Assembly: GCF_024706985.1 (NCBI RefSeq) | Contig: NZ_JAMCCX010000094.1 | Span: 56,340 to 120,339, forward strand | DNA length: 64,000 nucleotides | Reading direction: 5' to 3' | From: Alicyclobacillus sp. SP_1 | GTDB lineage: Bacteria; Bacillota; Bacilli; Alicyclobacillales; Alicyclobacillaceae | Shown here: piece after piece, positions 1,995 to 38,372 of the stretch | Layout: each line of letters opens with the position of its first letter | Position numbering within the stretch: the first letter of the stretch is position 1 | Position numbers and translations under genes: made by a program | The notes under the pieces: model-generated | Databases searched by the model: none | Told to the model about the DNA's origin: nothing | The model's input: the letters and a program-made list of their open reading frames with translations, nothing else

Positions 1995-2266
1995 TTCGAT
2001 GTACCCTGATGGCGTGGATTCTGCTGAACTTTGGTCAGGGCCACCGCGAGCTCTCGGACAATGTCCATTTGCAATTGGGAATTCATGTACTGTGCTTTGA
2101 CATAAGCTTGTCCTCGGTCGGTCGAAACGTACCGAGAAGGCAGCTGATTGAGTGCGATGGCCATAATGTCATCGCGACACTGCTCACACGCGCACGGCAT
2201 TCTCGACTCCCACTCATGTTCCTCCAGCGTATGACGAACCAACAATTCTGTCACATTAACCAACAT
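1991..2266 (-). CDS. ComFB-family late competence protein
   Basis: A 91-residue protein with the ComFB family layout: N-terminal VNVTELLVRHTLEEH helix, a CACEQC cysteine pair and DIMAIALNQLPSRYVST, then a K/Y-rich stretch. ComFB in Bacillus lies between comFA and comFC; cyanobacterial members bind c-di-AMP or c-di-GMP. The ATG at 2266 has a GGGGGG seven bases upstream; a TTG two codons earlier is less likely. It is coupled to tadA, so this copy is not in a competence operon and its role is open. Confidence 0.8.
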   Translation of the reverse strand: MLVNVTELLVRHTLEEHEWESRMPCACEQCRDDIMAIALNQLPSRYVSTDRGQAYVKAQYMNSQLQMDIVRELAVALTKVQQNPRHQGTSK

Positions 2267-2345
2267 AACCAAGCCCCCCCAGCCGCGCCAATATCCGTCG
2301 TCCCATGCATAAGATGCGAAGAGTCTTGTTGAAGGAGGAGTACCG

Positions 2346-3206
2346 ATGGAAAACGGTCATCTTGACGAACAGCGAAAATTTATAGACAAATGGCAGATGC
2401 ATATTCTACTTTCTCGGCACACAGTACCCGACCTTCACCTGCCATACACTGCACTTTGGAGCAAAGAGGCATTGCACTCCTTCTGTGAACACTATCGTTG
2501 TCTATACATTAAGCCGACAGACACGTGGGGCGGCCAGGCCATCGCGCGCATCCAACAGGTGCAAGGGCATTGGATTGTAAAATCGCCCTCTGATGAACCC
2601 ATCCTCTTGTCTTCAGTTGAAGAAATTTGGAATGTGTTGAATCCACGCTATCAAACCAAGACCATTATACAGCAGTGTGCACCGGTCGCTTCCTGGATGG
2701 GTCGACCGCTCGACATCCGCGCACTGCTCCAGCGAGACGAGTCCGACCGATGGATTTGGAGTGGTATGTTGGTACGAATCGGCGGTGAAAACAGTGTTGT
2801 CTCGAACGTTCAAGTAAGTTTTGGGAATGTTCAACCGCCCAATCAAATATTACCACACATTCTTAAAAGTCGCGCTCTCTATCCGCAAGTCGTCGAAAAA
2901 ATTCAAACTATCTCATATGCTCTCTGCTCCAAATTGGACGAAATCCACTTTTTTGAGGAAGTCGGTATCGACTATGGCGTCGGCAGGCACGGCGACCTCT
3001 GGCTCTTTGAGGTCAATACCAACGATGCGCTCGGTGGACCAAGTCACGAACTGTTCGCACAGTTGCAGGACAGGCGCCTCTATGACGAAATCGAAGCACG
3101 CTGGCGGAGTCGACAAATGAATGTCGCTCGAGAACTGTGGAAAGACCTGTTTCATTCGGCCGAAGCGGACAACACTTCCGATGCGTCTTCTTTGGGTGAC
3201 TTGTGA
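2346..3206 (+). CDS. YheC/YheD-family endospore coat-associated ATP-grasp protein
   Basis: A 286-residue protein whose ATG follows AAGGAGGAGTACCG. It starts with a short divergent segment (KWQMHILLSRHTVPDLHLP) followed by an ATP-grasp fold: YIKPTDTWGGQAIARI for nucleotide binding, DIRALLQR in the middle, and the metal-binding end LWLFEVNTNDALGG. These are features of the YheC/YheD family, found in the spores of Bacillus. The gene is shorter than the two-domain YheD proteins (~450 aa). Its last 55 bases overlap the 3' end of the convergent thioesterase gene. Good evidence for an endospore-forming host; the substrate is unknown. Confidence 0.82.
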   Translation: MENGHLDEQRKFIDKWQMHILLSRHTVPDLHLPYTALWSKEALHSFCEHYRCLYIKPTDTWGGQAIARIQQVQGHWIVKSPSDEPILLSSVEEIWNVLNPRYQTKTIIQQCAPVASWMGRPLDIRALLQRDESDRWIWSGMLVRIGGENSVVSNVQVSFGNVQPPNQILPHILKSRALYPQVVEKIQTISYALCSKLDEIHFFEEVGIDYGVGRHGDLWLFEVNTNDALGGPSHELFAQLQDRRLYDEIEARWRSRQMNVARELWKDLFHSAEADNTSDASSLGDL

Positions 3207-34462: not shown

Positions 34463-34697
34463 TTCCTCGCCTCCTTGATGAGATTCAGTGCACGAAACTC
34501 ACTCCACCATTCACTATACCAGGAAAATGACATCGCATCATCCGTTCATCCGTTAATTTTTCGCGACTTCCTCCAAATCGCGCGAATTGCGCGTATAGTA
34601 TGAGGTATAGACGAAGTGTCACGATGTCGTTTTCGCTCAACCTTTTCTCGAACAGCGAAGATATCGTGGCACAAACGACCACCTGGAGGTGACCCGA

Positions 34698-35765
34698 GTG
34701 AGTCTCCCCTTGACTGAAACCAGAGGAGAAACTGTGGAACGGAATTGGCCTTATGACGAAAGCGACATCGGTCAGACCGCGCTCTTTCCGCAATACCGTG
34801 CCGATTTACGTTCCCCGCATCCCACAGAACTAAACGCGTTTATCCAGGACAACATTGTAAAGGACTGGTCGTCTCTTACCTGGAAACAAGTTGGAAAGCC
34901 TTTCCGAGTGGTCAATTATGCGGAGGGGAAACGACGGTGGGAGGAGAAAAACGGAGACACGTTGCCAGTGCAAAAATCTTGGGAACTGTTCAATCAGTCC
35001 TTTCACACGTTATTCATGAAAGACGTTCCAACCGAGCGCAAACGGGTGATGACGGCCCTTCTCAAAAATGTCTCTCAGTTGCATTGGAAGCGGGCGGCGC
35101 GGGTGCTCGGCGAGTTGGAAGAGTTGACTCTCTGGAATACGGCGCACCGCATTCAAGATGCAATTTGGGATCCCAGGGGCAAGCGCGCACTCTTTCAGGG
35201 ACTCGATATTGACAAGCCGCGCGTCCTGTTTCTTGGCGCAGCAGACGGTTATGAGGCCATGCAGCTTTACGCGATGTATCCCGGCGGCGAAGTCGTATTG
35301 GTGGACTATGATGATTTTTGCAGAACGGACCGATTTGGGAAATTCCCGGAGCAATATCCATTCTTGGGAGTAGACCCGAATACCGGCTCCCATAAAGTCT
35401 GGTACAAAGACCAAATGAACATCTCATTCATCACCGACGACATCCGCAATCTCCCGTTTGGTCGAGAATTTGACATCGTGGTCAGTGTCGGATTGATTGA
35501 GCACTTTCCGGATGAGCACAAAGCGGAGGCCATCGACTTTCACCGCCGCTTTCTCAAGCCGGATGGTTATGCCATTCTGACCACACCCAGGCTGCAGTGG
35601 AAATCGCGCCTCTTCTATCATGTCTTAGCAGAATGGATGAACTACACGTATCGCGAACTGATGACGGTCCAACAGATGGGCCTCTATCTGTACGAAAGTG
35701 GATTTGAAATTCTTCGTCACGGCACCATCAAAGCGCACAACGGCATTGTCGCCCGCATCCGCTGA
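34698..35765 (+). CDS. Class I SAM-dependent methyltransferase
   Basis: A 355-residue protein. The N-terminal ~165 residues are a charged helical domain with no recognised fold. A Rossmann-type methyltransferase follows: motif I VLFLGAADGYEAMQL, motif II VVLVDYDDF, motif IV DIVVSVGLIEHFPDEHKAEA, then LKPDGYAILTTPRL. GTG 34698 lies eight bases after GGAGG. The substrate is unknown. Its 3' end points toward the guide RNA of the Cas12f-like gene, 40 bases away. Confidence 0.85.
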   Translation: MSLPLTETRGETVERNWPYDESDIGQTALFPQYRADLRSPHPTELNAFIQDNIVKDWSSLTWKQVGKPFRVVNYAEGKRRWEEKNGDTLPVQKSWELFNQSFHTLFMKDVPTERKRVMTALLKNVSQLHWKRAARVLGELEELTLWNTAHRIQDAIWDPRGKRALFQGLDIDKPRVLFLGAADGYEAMQLYAMYPGGEVVLVDYDDFCRTDRFGKFPEQYPFLGVDPNTGSHKVWYKDQMNISFITDDIRNLPFGREFDIVVSVGLIEHFPDEHKAEAIDFHRRFLKPDGYAILTTPRLQWKSRLFYHVLAEWMNYTYRELMTVQQMGLYLYESGFEILRHGTIKAHNGIVARIR

Positions 35766-35805: not shown

Positions 35806-35952
35806 CGTCTGTCGACAGTATACCTCCGAACCTTCACGGGTTTCGCGCGGACTTTGTGCGCGAAGTTTCAGGCTGCTAACGCAGCACTACCTTGACGAGA
35901 GCCCGCGGACACAAGCCGCTGGCTATCTCGTCTCTTCGCCTCTCGGCAGGCG
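35806..35952 (-). ncRNA. Guide RNA with Cas12f tracrRNA / omegaRNA-like scaffold
   Basis: On the minus strand this covers the last codons and the 3' side of the cas12f-like gene. In order: hairpin CGCCT-GCCGAG-AGGCG (35952-35937); GACGAGA...TCTCGTC stem-loop; AAGGTA; stem GCTGC-GTTA-GCAGC; TGAAAC; stem TTCGCGC-ACAAAGTCC-GCGCGAA; then AACC-cgtgaa-GGTT. From memory, the AsCas12f1 tracrRNA core reads AAGGTA, a stem, TGAAAC, TCCGTGC-ACAAAGACC-GCACGGA: same order, same loops, with compensating stem changes. The bases after the scaffold (35823-35806) are the putative guide. Overlap with the CDS 3' end is as in TnpB omegaRNAs. No CRISPR array adjoins it. Confidence 0.85.
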
Positions 35953-37194
35953 TTCCATCGGAAGCCGAATCAGATTTCGCAATGCATTCTCTTCCGTGGT
36001 GGACTGATAGTCGCAGTGTTCACAGTGGTAGTTCGGACCAGACGATTTCGATCCCGCTCCACACTGTGAGCACTGTCGTTCCAAAATGCGGGGGTCCATC
36101 TTGACGACGTCAATCCCTTTATCCGCAGCTTTGCGCAGTACCTGCATCTGTAAGTCAAAGTAGGTCCAGGCGCCTAAAAATGCCGAACCGCTCGACCGCA
36201 ACGACAAGTCATCCATGCGAATTGAGGAGCATCCTAAGCGAACTGCCGTATCGACAATTCTCCTTGCATAGGTGTGATTGACTGTGGCTCGAAAGCGGCT
36301 CACTTTGTCTTCCAGCTCAGTTAATGGCTCAAGACGCTTTTTGCGCCCATGCCCCGTTCGTCCGGACCCACAAACGCGAATTTGCCGCTGCAGCCGACGG
36401 CGTTTAGACTCCATAGCCAGGTGATGCTGCTTGACGGCCGAACCCTCGATGACACAACTCCAGTCCGGTCGGTCACTGACCACCATGACCGCTCGATTCG
36501 GGTCCGCCATACGCACTCCAAGGACGCGAGAATCGTGAGGCAACTGGCTCGATTCGACCGCGTAGGTCAAGTTCAAAAACCATTTGTGTTTCGTCTCCTG
36601 ATAAACGATGGAACTTTCCCGAATGGGTGTCTCCCCATTGATCCACTGTTCGAGAATGTGTCGAGCTAAATTTCGACCCGCATGAATTCTTACGGTATAG
36701 GTCGTACCCATCGCAGCGCGCTGCTCCTCGGTCCAATGTGGCAAAGAGCGCACCCACTGCTGACCGACTCGGCTGAGAAGACTTAGCTCCAACTCCACAT
36801 GCCGGCCATGGTCGACAAAAGCACCGTGACGAATGCTCGCTTTGTGCAGCAGAATAGGATTCGTGTTGCGAAAACTCGGGAAAGACTGGCGTCCCGCCAA
36901 GACAGCCTGGCGCGACTGATGCCAGACACGCTCAGCCTGAGTCACAGTCGATGTCAAGTTCTTCGCATGGACAATCCCAAATTCGTCGGAGATAACCTGA
37001 TAGAGCCACGTGCGAAACGGCTTATCCGTGGGTGCCACAGGCAAGAACTCCTGCTGGTAGCAGTATTGAACGACTCGATTTTTGAGTCGAAACGACTCCT
37101 GTTGAAGGGTCTTCAAAATGTACTGAAATATAGGCCATTCACAGGAGACGGGGCGAATGATTTCGTACTTCATCGACTTAATAATGGTTGGCAC
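35923..37194 (-). CDS. Cas12f1-like protein with substituted RuvC catalytic residues
   Basis: A 423-residue protein that follows AsCas12f1 (422 aa) along its length: N-terminal MKYEIIRPVSCEWPIFQYIL; GGHGR-type loop GRTGHGRKKRLEPLTEL; TVNHTYARRIVDTAVRLG; GAWTYFDLQMQVLRKAADKG; and zinc finger CSQCG...CEHC. The RuvC acidic residues are changed: GIDLG becomes GVRMA (D to R), QMEDL becomes RMDDL (E to D), and ADYNAARN becomes TEENALRN (D to E). DNA cleavage should therefore be lost while RNA and DNA binding may remain. GTG 37194 has GAGGAG six bases upstream. There are no cas1/cas2, IS ends or tnpA. The guide RNA overlaps its 3' end. Confidence 0.9.
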   Translation of the reverse strand: MPTIIKSMKYEIIRPVSCEWPIFQYILKTLQQESFRLKNRVVQYCYQQEFLPVAPTDKPFRTWLYQVISDEFGIVHAKNLTSTVTQAERVWHQSRQAVLAGRQSFPSFRNTNPILLHKASIRHGAFVDHGRHVELELSLLSRVGQQWVRSLPHWTEEQRAAMGTTYTVRIHAGRNLARHILEQWINGETPIRESSIVYQETKHKWFLNLTYAVESSQLPHDSRVLGVRMADPNRAVMVVSDRPDWSCVIEGSAVKQHHLAMESKRRRLQRQIRVCGSGRTGHGRKKRLEPLTELEDKVSRFRATVNHTYARRIVDTAVRLGCSSIRMDDLSLRSSGSAFLGAWTYFDLQMQVLRKAADKGIDVVKMDPRILERQCSQCGAGSKSSGPNYHCEHCDYQSTTEENALRNLIRLPMERLPRGEETR

Positions 37195-37229
37195 AGGCAA
37201 CTCCTCGCATACGTCTTCTCGCCTCTAAG

Positions 37230-37318: not shown

Positions 37319-37348
37319 TTGACCTCATTCGCCAAAGTCCAGTATACT
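37319..37348 (+). promoter_or_regulatory. Promoter of the c-di-AMP riboswitch / NlpC-P60 unit
   Basis: TTGACC and TATACT with an 18-base spacer, just upstream of the riboswitch. A direct repeat AAAAATAGTT at 37289-37298 and 37311-37320 (22 bp apart, about two helical turns) abuts and overlaps the -35, as for a tandem activator or repressor site. Confidence 0.75.
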
Positions 37349-37359
37349 TTCGCCAGACG
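37342..37359 (+). other. Candidate target site of the Cas12f-like guide
   Basis: GTATACTTTCGCCAGACG differs from the putative guide GTATACTGTCGACAGACG at only two of 18 positions (8 and 12). The first seven bases are identical, and the match ends on both sides. The site covers the whole -10 box (37343-37348) and the expected start of transcription. The base triplet upstream is CCA, so the usual NTTR motif of AsCas12f1 is not met as written. Confidence 0.65.
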
Positions 37360-37545
37360 CTGTCAAAAAACGCCGAACCCCGCTGGCGTCCGGGGATGGG
37401 GGATATTCATTTTGGGGCGAATCCTATTCTTGGCAGTTTAGCGGTTTTGCGCGAAACGCGCAAGACGCGAGCGGCACAAGATTAAGTAGGGAACTCACCA
37501 GCTGCTTGCCCGAGCCCGTCAACTAACCTCGTAGGCGAACAAGGA
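37360..37545 (+). promoter_or_regulatory. c-di-AMP riboswitch (ydaO/yuaA type)
   Basis: The leader contains the conserved ydaO blocks in order: CCGGGGATGGGGG, GGGGCGAATCCTATTCTTGG, the variable hairpin (GCGGTTTTGCGCG...), GGGAACTCACC, and the highly conserved TGCCCGAGCCCGTC followed by AACTAACCTCGTAGGCGA. It ends at the AAGGAG of the next gene. In Bacillus this class switches off cell-wall hydrolase and ion/osmolyte genes when c-di-AMP is high. Confidence 0.9.
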
Positions 37546-37553
37546 GCTCATCA

Positions 37554-38372
37554 GTGAAGAAGTCTGTCTCATTCGCCATGTCGGTCGCTTTGTTCGCCGG
37601 GTTGAACACTTCTGTAGCGTTGGCGGACACCCTGCACTATCGTGTCGAGTCCGGAAACTCTCTTTATCAGATTGCAGAAGAATATCACACCTCCGTCGTC
37701 AACTTGAAGACGTGGAACCACCTCGACAGCAACTTAATTGACGTTGGTCAAGAGTTGGTTGTACATGCAGACACGAACACCCAGTCGTCACAAGGAAGCA
37801 CGGTCACGGTAGAACCTGGGGACAGCATTTGGTCCATCAGCCAGGCACATGGAGTGACAATGGCGGAATTAGAGCGCTGGAATGGATTGAACAACGACAG
37901 TATCCTACATACAGGGCAAAAGCTTCGCCTTTACGGCACGAGCGGCTCGATGGTGCTCAGTGCTCGCGGAGACAGCCCGGCCAGCGCTCAACTTACAAAT
38001 GCCGTTCTCGGGGAACGAATTGCAGAATTCTCCAAACAATTCGAAGGTTATCCGTATGTGTGGGCAGGGACCAGCCCTAGTGGATTTGATTGCTCGGGTC
38101 TTGTCTACTTTGTCTATCTCCATTTTGGCATGAATTTGGGAGAGTCGAGTTACACTCAGTTTAACGAAGGTACGCACGTAGCCGAGTCGGATTTACAACC
38201 GGGGGACTTAGTGTTTTTTGATACGGACGGTGGCGGCGCTTCCCACGTTGGCATCTATCTCGGCAATGGGAGTTTCATCAGTGCGCAGACACCGCAGAGT
38301 GGCGTGCAAATTGCATCCCTCGACAACTCGTACTGGTCCAATCACTATGTCGGTGCCAGTCGAATCGTCTGA
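37554..38372 (+). CDS. Secreted LysM-LysM-NlpC/P60 cell-wall hydrolase
   Basis: A 272-residue exported enzyme: signal peptide (MKKSVSFAMSVALFAGLNTSVALA), two LysM peptidoglycan-binding domains (YRVESGNSLYQIAEEYH at ~29-72 and VEPGDSIWSISQAHG at ~85-125), then NlpC/P60 at ~145-272. Catalytic Cys is in SGFDCSGLVYFVYLHFG, His in ASHVGIYLGNG, and a third polar residue near ISAQTPQSG. It should cut D-Glu-mDAP peptide stems. GTG 37554 follows AAGGAG. Its promoter is overlapped by the candidate Cas12f-like target and its leader holds the c-di-AMP riboswitch. Confidence 0.93.
   Translation: MKKSVSFAMSVALFAGLNTSVALADTLHYRVESGNSLYQIAEEYHTSVVNLKTWNHLDSNLIDVGQELVVHADTNTQSSQGSTVTVEPGDSIWSISQAHGVTMAELERWNGLNNDSILHTGQKLRLYGTSGSMVLSARGDSPASAQLTNAVLGERIAEFSKQFEGYPYVWAGTSPSGFDCSGLVYFVYLHFGMNLGESSYTQFNEGTHVAESDLQPGDLVFFDTDGGGASHVGIYLGNGSFISAQTPQSGVQIASLDNSYWSNHYVGASRIV

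Follow-up and report, generated by a model that had tools for sequence, protein, structure and literature searches.

A Cas12f1-family protein with replaced catalytic residues and a predicted guide RNA matching the promoter of a divergent cell-wall hydrolase gene in Alicyclobacillus sp. SP_1

Background

Natural RNA-guided regulators include the TldR proteins, reportedly first described in Nature in 2024, and the dCas12f-sigma activators, in which a sigma-factor gene lies beside dCas12f. We take the nuclease-deactivated Cas12f of PDB entries 9n9c and 9n9m to be linked to sigma-factor recruitment. TldRs stem from transposon TnpB (IS200/IS605 or IS607) and work with an omega-RNA; according to PMC13418256 they form a RuvC-dead, RNA-guided family in which the guide RNA is encoded directly behind the gene, the guide matches a promoter and a non-transposon gene is associated. 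The same source states that repression needs a seed of 6 nt, that TldRs repress with guides down to 6 nt and that natural guide-target mismatches are tolerated.

AsCas12f1, a type V-F nuclease of Sulfoacidibacillus (PDB 8dzj and 8j12; L091/L154 in our set), has a YTTN PAM and an RNA made up of a 169-nt tracrRNA plus a crRNA, and according to PMC8548392 RuvC aspartate-to-alanine changes abolish cleavage, DNA binding by these enzymes is PAM-dependent and dead SpCas12f1 was employed in DNA-binding assays. The AsCas12f1 variant D225A alone is a dead enzyme in use (PMC12702181). In Corynebacterium glutamicum, a c-di-AMP riboswitch of the class discussed below precedes an NlpC/P60 peptidase gene, and the accessible part of that report (PMC9960051) mentions no RNA-guided protein for this riboswitch-peptidase unit.

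The system described here lies in a 64,000-nt stretch of contig NZ_JAMCCX010000094.1 of Alicyclobacillus sp. SP_1 (the window). It is TldR-like in its predicted working but built from Cas12f1. With the TldRs it shares an inactivated RuvC, a predicted guide RNA directly behind the gene, a guide that matches a promoter over a short seed and with mismatches, and an associated non-transposon gene. Unlike the TldRs it has its nearest relatives not among TnpB proteins but among Cas12f1 proteins with a tracrRNA. Its scaffold is of the tracrRNA type and its origin a CRISPR effector of the AsCas12f1 branch; its predicted target is the cell-wall hydrolase of the same locus. It resembles AsCas12f1 in fold, in sequence (about 30% identity) and in the tracrRNA core and its stems, but the three RuvC acids are replaced and the locus has no array; where the AsCas12f1 locus continues with an anti-repeat and a separate array, this locus has a short linker and then the guide fused behind the scaffold. 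The 9n9c and 9n9m proteins likewise are natural dead Cas12f with guide RNA, but their sequences are distant from it (1.2e-06 over 210 residues), and the window system is without a sigma gene and predicted to repress. In the open-licence literature that we searched, we saw no nuclease-dead Cas12f1 described for this bacterial family. The reading that we favour, with a probability of roughly 0.6, is that the dead Cas12f1 and a single guide RNA would repress the divergent LysM-NlpC/P60 gene by occupying its -10 box.

Results and discussion

The Cas12f1-family protein

The gene (35923..37200, minus strand; assigned through PDB, PADLOC and alignment) starts with TTG and encodes 425 aa, the database entry P0001 starting 2 residues later. 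AsCas12f was the best PDB relative by sequence (3.3e-60), AsCas12f complexes were the best by fold comparison of a structure model (pLDDT 80.7, pTM 0.58), the best PADLOC model was Cas12f (4.7e-78), and the homology with Cas12f1 runs over the length of the protein. The NCBIfam model guided_TnpB gave 84.4 bits, under its cut-off of 100. In the alignment R230, D330 and E403 occupy the AsCas12f1 positions D225, E324 and D401, so that the RuvC triad reads R/D/E instead of D/E/D. This alignment places the protein in the AsCas12f1 branch of Cas12f1, its RuvC acids being changed at all three places, in line with the earlier note on this DNA, which had called it a dead Cas12f.

A protein of this kind could also be an immunity relic: an active Cas12f1 locus would have lost its array and decayed, a guide match would be chance or the trace of self-targeting that selected for nuclease loss, and nothing would be regulated today. 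We consider this unlikely. The 425-codon frame is open, all four zinc-ribbon cysteines have survived along with most of the fold, the RNA stems described below are intact, and all three catalytic residues have been replaced while the remaining protein aligns end to end. On the other hand, the window protein is on a long branch, as a decaying gene also would be: in a tree without P0001 and without a phage copy that duplicates the G036 row, it is the sister of the intact P0002 (96/94) with a branch length of 1.4 versus 0.21. Decay is also favoured by the lack of a close orthologue in the other genomes searched, for only 6 of the 41 family genomes have a match at E 1e-15 and the next best is 38% identical. 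A protein search returned P0001 (its own cluster, with 8 near-identical members), P0002 (43%) and P0003, and a scan of the genome contig collection with the protein (from which its own genome is possibly left out) gave no close orthologue.

The scaffold and the linker

Behind the gene we found a guide RNA scaffold (35842..35932, minus strand) by comparison with tracrRNAs and with a covariance model. It consists of stem 1 (GACGAG/CTCGTC), AAGGTAG, hairpin 2, CTGAAAC and stem 3 with the conserved loop ACAAAGTCC, in that order, and the 5' stem extends into the 3' end of cas12f, stop codon included. The window scaffold has the elements GGTAG, TGAAAC and the loop ACAAARNCC in common with five other RNAs: the AsCas12f1 tracrRNA (L091), that of an active, array-bearing relative (L090) and those of three dead relatives (L092-L094). 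Stem 1 pairs at all 6 positions in 5 of 5 sequences, with the type of pair changing at two, and stem 3 is paired in 41 of 42 cells, with changes of type in 5 of its 7 pairs; the arms were picked by hand, and G028 (for stem 3), G017 and G002 (for stem 1) and L167 (a near copy of L166) were omitted. MAFFT alignments, which put the first stem in the wrong place for some rows, were kept out of these counts.

The 109-nt scaffold had a z of -3.2. The covariance model matched 35893-35842 with 58.3 bits, the window sequence being one of the six from which the model was built. Its only copy in the SP_1 genome adjoins cas12f; copies were found in 5 of the 41 family genomes under a strict filter that may lose weak ones, and all 8 scaffold places found share a contig with a Cas12f relative. 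The scaffold named in the earlier note is thus supported, the RNA being homologous to the AsCas12f1 tracrRNA, in its core only, and having covarying stems.

The scaffold is followed by the 18-nt linker ACCCGTGAAGGTTCGGAG (35824..35841, minus strand), which has a weak predicted 3-bp hairpin and replaces the repeat:anti-repeat duplex, and by the predicted guide GTATACTGTCGACAGACG (35806..35823, minus strand), the exact start of which is putative. We infer that linker and guide are a natural tracr-crRNA fusion. The RNA might be transcribed with the cas12f mRNA, or cut out of it, and serve as a natural single guide RNA whose guide, about 18 nt long, begins near 35823. No direct-repeat family, and hence no CRISPR array, was detected in the window between 30000 and 44000, and a consensus scan near the guide gave no minus-strand promoter and no terminator. 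A convergent methyltransferase gene (34689..35765, plus strand) ends 40 nt beyond the guide.

The match between guide and promoter

Divergent from cas12f lies a gene for a LysM-LysM-NlpC/P60 protein, a putative cell-wall endopeptidase (37554..38372, plus strand; NLPC_P60 2.6e-33, LysM 2e-28) with an N-terminus that by eye is signal-peptide-like. It is preceded by a c-di-AMP riboswitch (37361..37551, plus strand; RF00379, 59.5 bits with a cut-off of 38), one of three of this class in the SP_1 genome, and by a sigma-A type promoter TTGACC-N18-TATACT (37319..37348, plus strand), assigned by its match to the consensus, in which TTGACC (37319-37324) is paired with TATACT (37343-37348) over a spacer of 18.

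The predicted target site GTATACTTTCGCCAGACG (37342..37359, plus strand) matches the guide, read from 35823 to 35806, in 16 of 18 bases, namely at positions 1-7, 9-11 and 13-18. Recomputation confirmed what the earlier note had said of this match, i.e. its coordinates, the mismatches at 8 and 12 only, the end of similarity on both sides (GAG versus CCA before, AAG versus CTG after), the location of the -10 hexamer within the site, and the caveat that CCA precedes it (TCCA at 37338-37341). Outside TATACT, which is common to many promoters, 10 of the remaining 12 bases match by count. Only four places in the 3,395,104 bases of the genome match the guide with at most 3 mismatches: the guide's own position, the target with 2 mismatches and two further places with 3, so that besides the guide itself the target is the sole place within 2 mismatches.

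As a control the 353-bp intergenic region was shuffled with its dinucleotides preserved and compared with 18-mers from 1, 9 or 25 guide registers; in each of the three settings 0 of 4000 shuffles reached 16 of 18 (best scores 14, 15 and 15). Where the guide register is the expected one, the match therefore exceeds chance. A register-blind test of the 326 nt downstream versus the whole intergenic region is weaker: its score of 12 equalled the maximum of 100 simple shuffles, with 11 as the 95th percentile. The significance of the match hence rests on the rough position of the guide, which the scaffold comparison supplies within several bases. For an immunity relic this register-blind outcome is a point in favour, as is the flank TCCA in place of the YTTN PAM; a register-aware chance below 1 in 4000 and the position of the match on the -10 box argue against it. 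A predicted guide RNA beside the gene and a guide matching a promoter, the combination seen in TldR systems, occur together here in one genome.

The simplest reading is that the complex occupies the promoter and represses it, guide positions 1-7 being matched over the -10 box. In this single-guide CRISPRi reading, of which we infer the expression, binding and repression, the protein-RNA complex would open and hold the promoter DNA without cutting and keep RNA polymerase out. The hydrolase would then be under two controls, an RNA-guided one at initiation followed by the predicted c-di-AMP riboswitch. Against repression speak the flank TCCA where AsCas12f1 would need YTTN, the mismatch at guide position 8, the lack of a minus-strand promoter and a terminator in the consensus scan, the lack of a second case with a readable target, and the indirect placing of the guide start.

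The uncertainty of that start also leaves room for an RNA-guided complex that regulates other sequences, for example foreign DNA or a remote gene, and for which the hydrolase promoter would be a side match. A 15/18 match over another TATACT, directly upstream of lepA (L003 1501-1518), could be read in this way, but it is at chance level (by our own estimate about 2 genome places are expected at 3 mismatches), the neighbouring promoter is the best match in the genome and the viral collection holds no exact match of the guide. We thus deem another target improbable. As there is no riboswitch at lepA, we rejected a second riboswitch promoter as the meaning of that match.

Nuclease-deactivated Cas12f complexes in the PDB (9n9c and relatives) bring to mind RNA-guided activation as in dCas12f-sigma, with the complex bringing RNA polymerase to the hydrolase promoter. 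This seems very improbable, since Pfam revealed no sigma factor among the 11 neighbouring proteins and a complex bound over the -10 box itself would exclude polymerase.

Conservation of the predicted target site

In the sole congener compared (G001), a search at E 1e-15 gave no Cas12f relative. Its hydrolase orthologue is 62% identical, the riboswitch is kept, and so are both promoter elements, their spacing and 17 of the 18 site bases, while the sequence of the promoter spacer has diverged. The one difference is at position 9, where the window but not G001 has the guide-matching base (a single base). Because G001 has the site without the Cas12f system, conservation of the site says nothing for the guide; to judge from this comparison, the site may either be a conserved promoter start that a guide later came to match, or have been kept for another reason. 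We rejected the idea of a widely conserved promoter element, as within 1 mismatch the site was found only in the SP_1 genome and G001 among 37 loci.

Dead and intact relatives

Among 18 related proteins from a family-alignment search the first RuvC acid is lost in 4 (P0001, P0004, P0014 and P0018), and only in P0001, the window's own cluster, are all three changed. Dead genes were found in G016 (L092 8686-9966, first acid R), G017 (L093 2796-3980, R) and G002 (L094 9520-10731, S). In the tree their proteins form a separate group (98/98), and these separate places imply two or more inactivations of Cas12f1, provided that activity was never regained.

A tracr-type scaffold lies near each dead gene (downstream on the opposite strand in G016, upstream in G017 and G002), and the divergent neighbours encode an FMN-dependent dehydrogenase (G016) and COX15-CtaA (G017 and G002); no CRISPR array was seen in L092. 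Between the dead genes of G017 and G002 dN is 0.22 and dS 2.31 (NG86), a ratio of 0.10 with dS near saturation, which, with gene and RNA both kept, points to a kept function. In G017 a 70-bp inverted repeat (L093 2317-2386 and 4321-4252), of which the same genome has similar copies at other places (L113, L123), brackets the dead cas12f and the RNA.

Compared with the divergent intergenic regions, the candidate guides of G016, G017 and G002 did no better than shuffles (418, 509 and 1000 of 1000 reached the observed score), and they had no convincing match elsewhere in their genomes; in the genome search with guides of the other dead loci, reversed-pattern controls had 23 and 21 matches versus 19 and 15. 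As the guide starts are uncertain in these three genomes, we regard this as a missing result and not as a refutation of a promoter-targeting rule.

We give about an even chance to the wider proposal that a CRISPR effector, and not a transposon TnpB, was domesticated as a one-guide repressor: its tracrRNA would be fused with a spacer-like guide and shut a c-di-AMP-gated hydrolase promoter, and with inactivation at least twice in the family (the window; G016/G017/G002) dead Cas12f1 regulators may recur. If true, this would be a natural CRISPRi made from the compact Cas12f1 of genome-editing use, in which a CRISPR effector traded immunity for gene regulation and RNA-guided control became tied to cell-wall hydrolysis and c-di-AMP signalling. 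It would also provide a single guide RNA shaped by evolution, some 127 nt long with its guide as against the 169-nt tracrRNA plus crRNA of AsCas12f1, and a small DNA-binding protein whose need for a flanking motif may differ.

Of 18 viral relatives 16 have D/E/D, one (L186) has N/A/E and one (L173) was not scored, another frame having been taken. The L186 protein (2001-3110), from a viral contig with the same metagenome number (3300006674) as L167, is likely another dead Cas12f relative, to judge by these residues. Two viral contigs carry a full Cas12f-type scaffold with a repeat-like end (L166 10221-10273 and L167 6082-6134), with no Cas12f-like frame in the examined 13416 of 32590 and 6673 of 27357 bases, respectively; they perhaps encode solitary phage guide RNAs. 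Alicyclobacillus phage MMB025 (L168 3763-5341, PV686781.1) has an intact Cas12f relative, annotated as transposase, with a CRISPR beside it, and its row in the alignment is identical to the G036 copy. In G028, four scaffold copies (L090 6257-6310, 7972-8025 and 9606-9659, and C69:50421-50474) lie on one contig around an intact Cas12f with short arrays.
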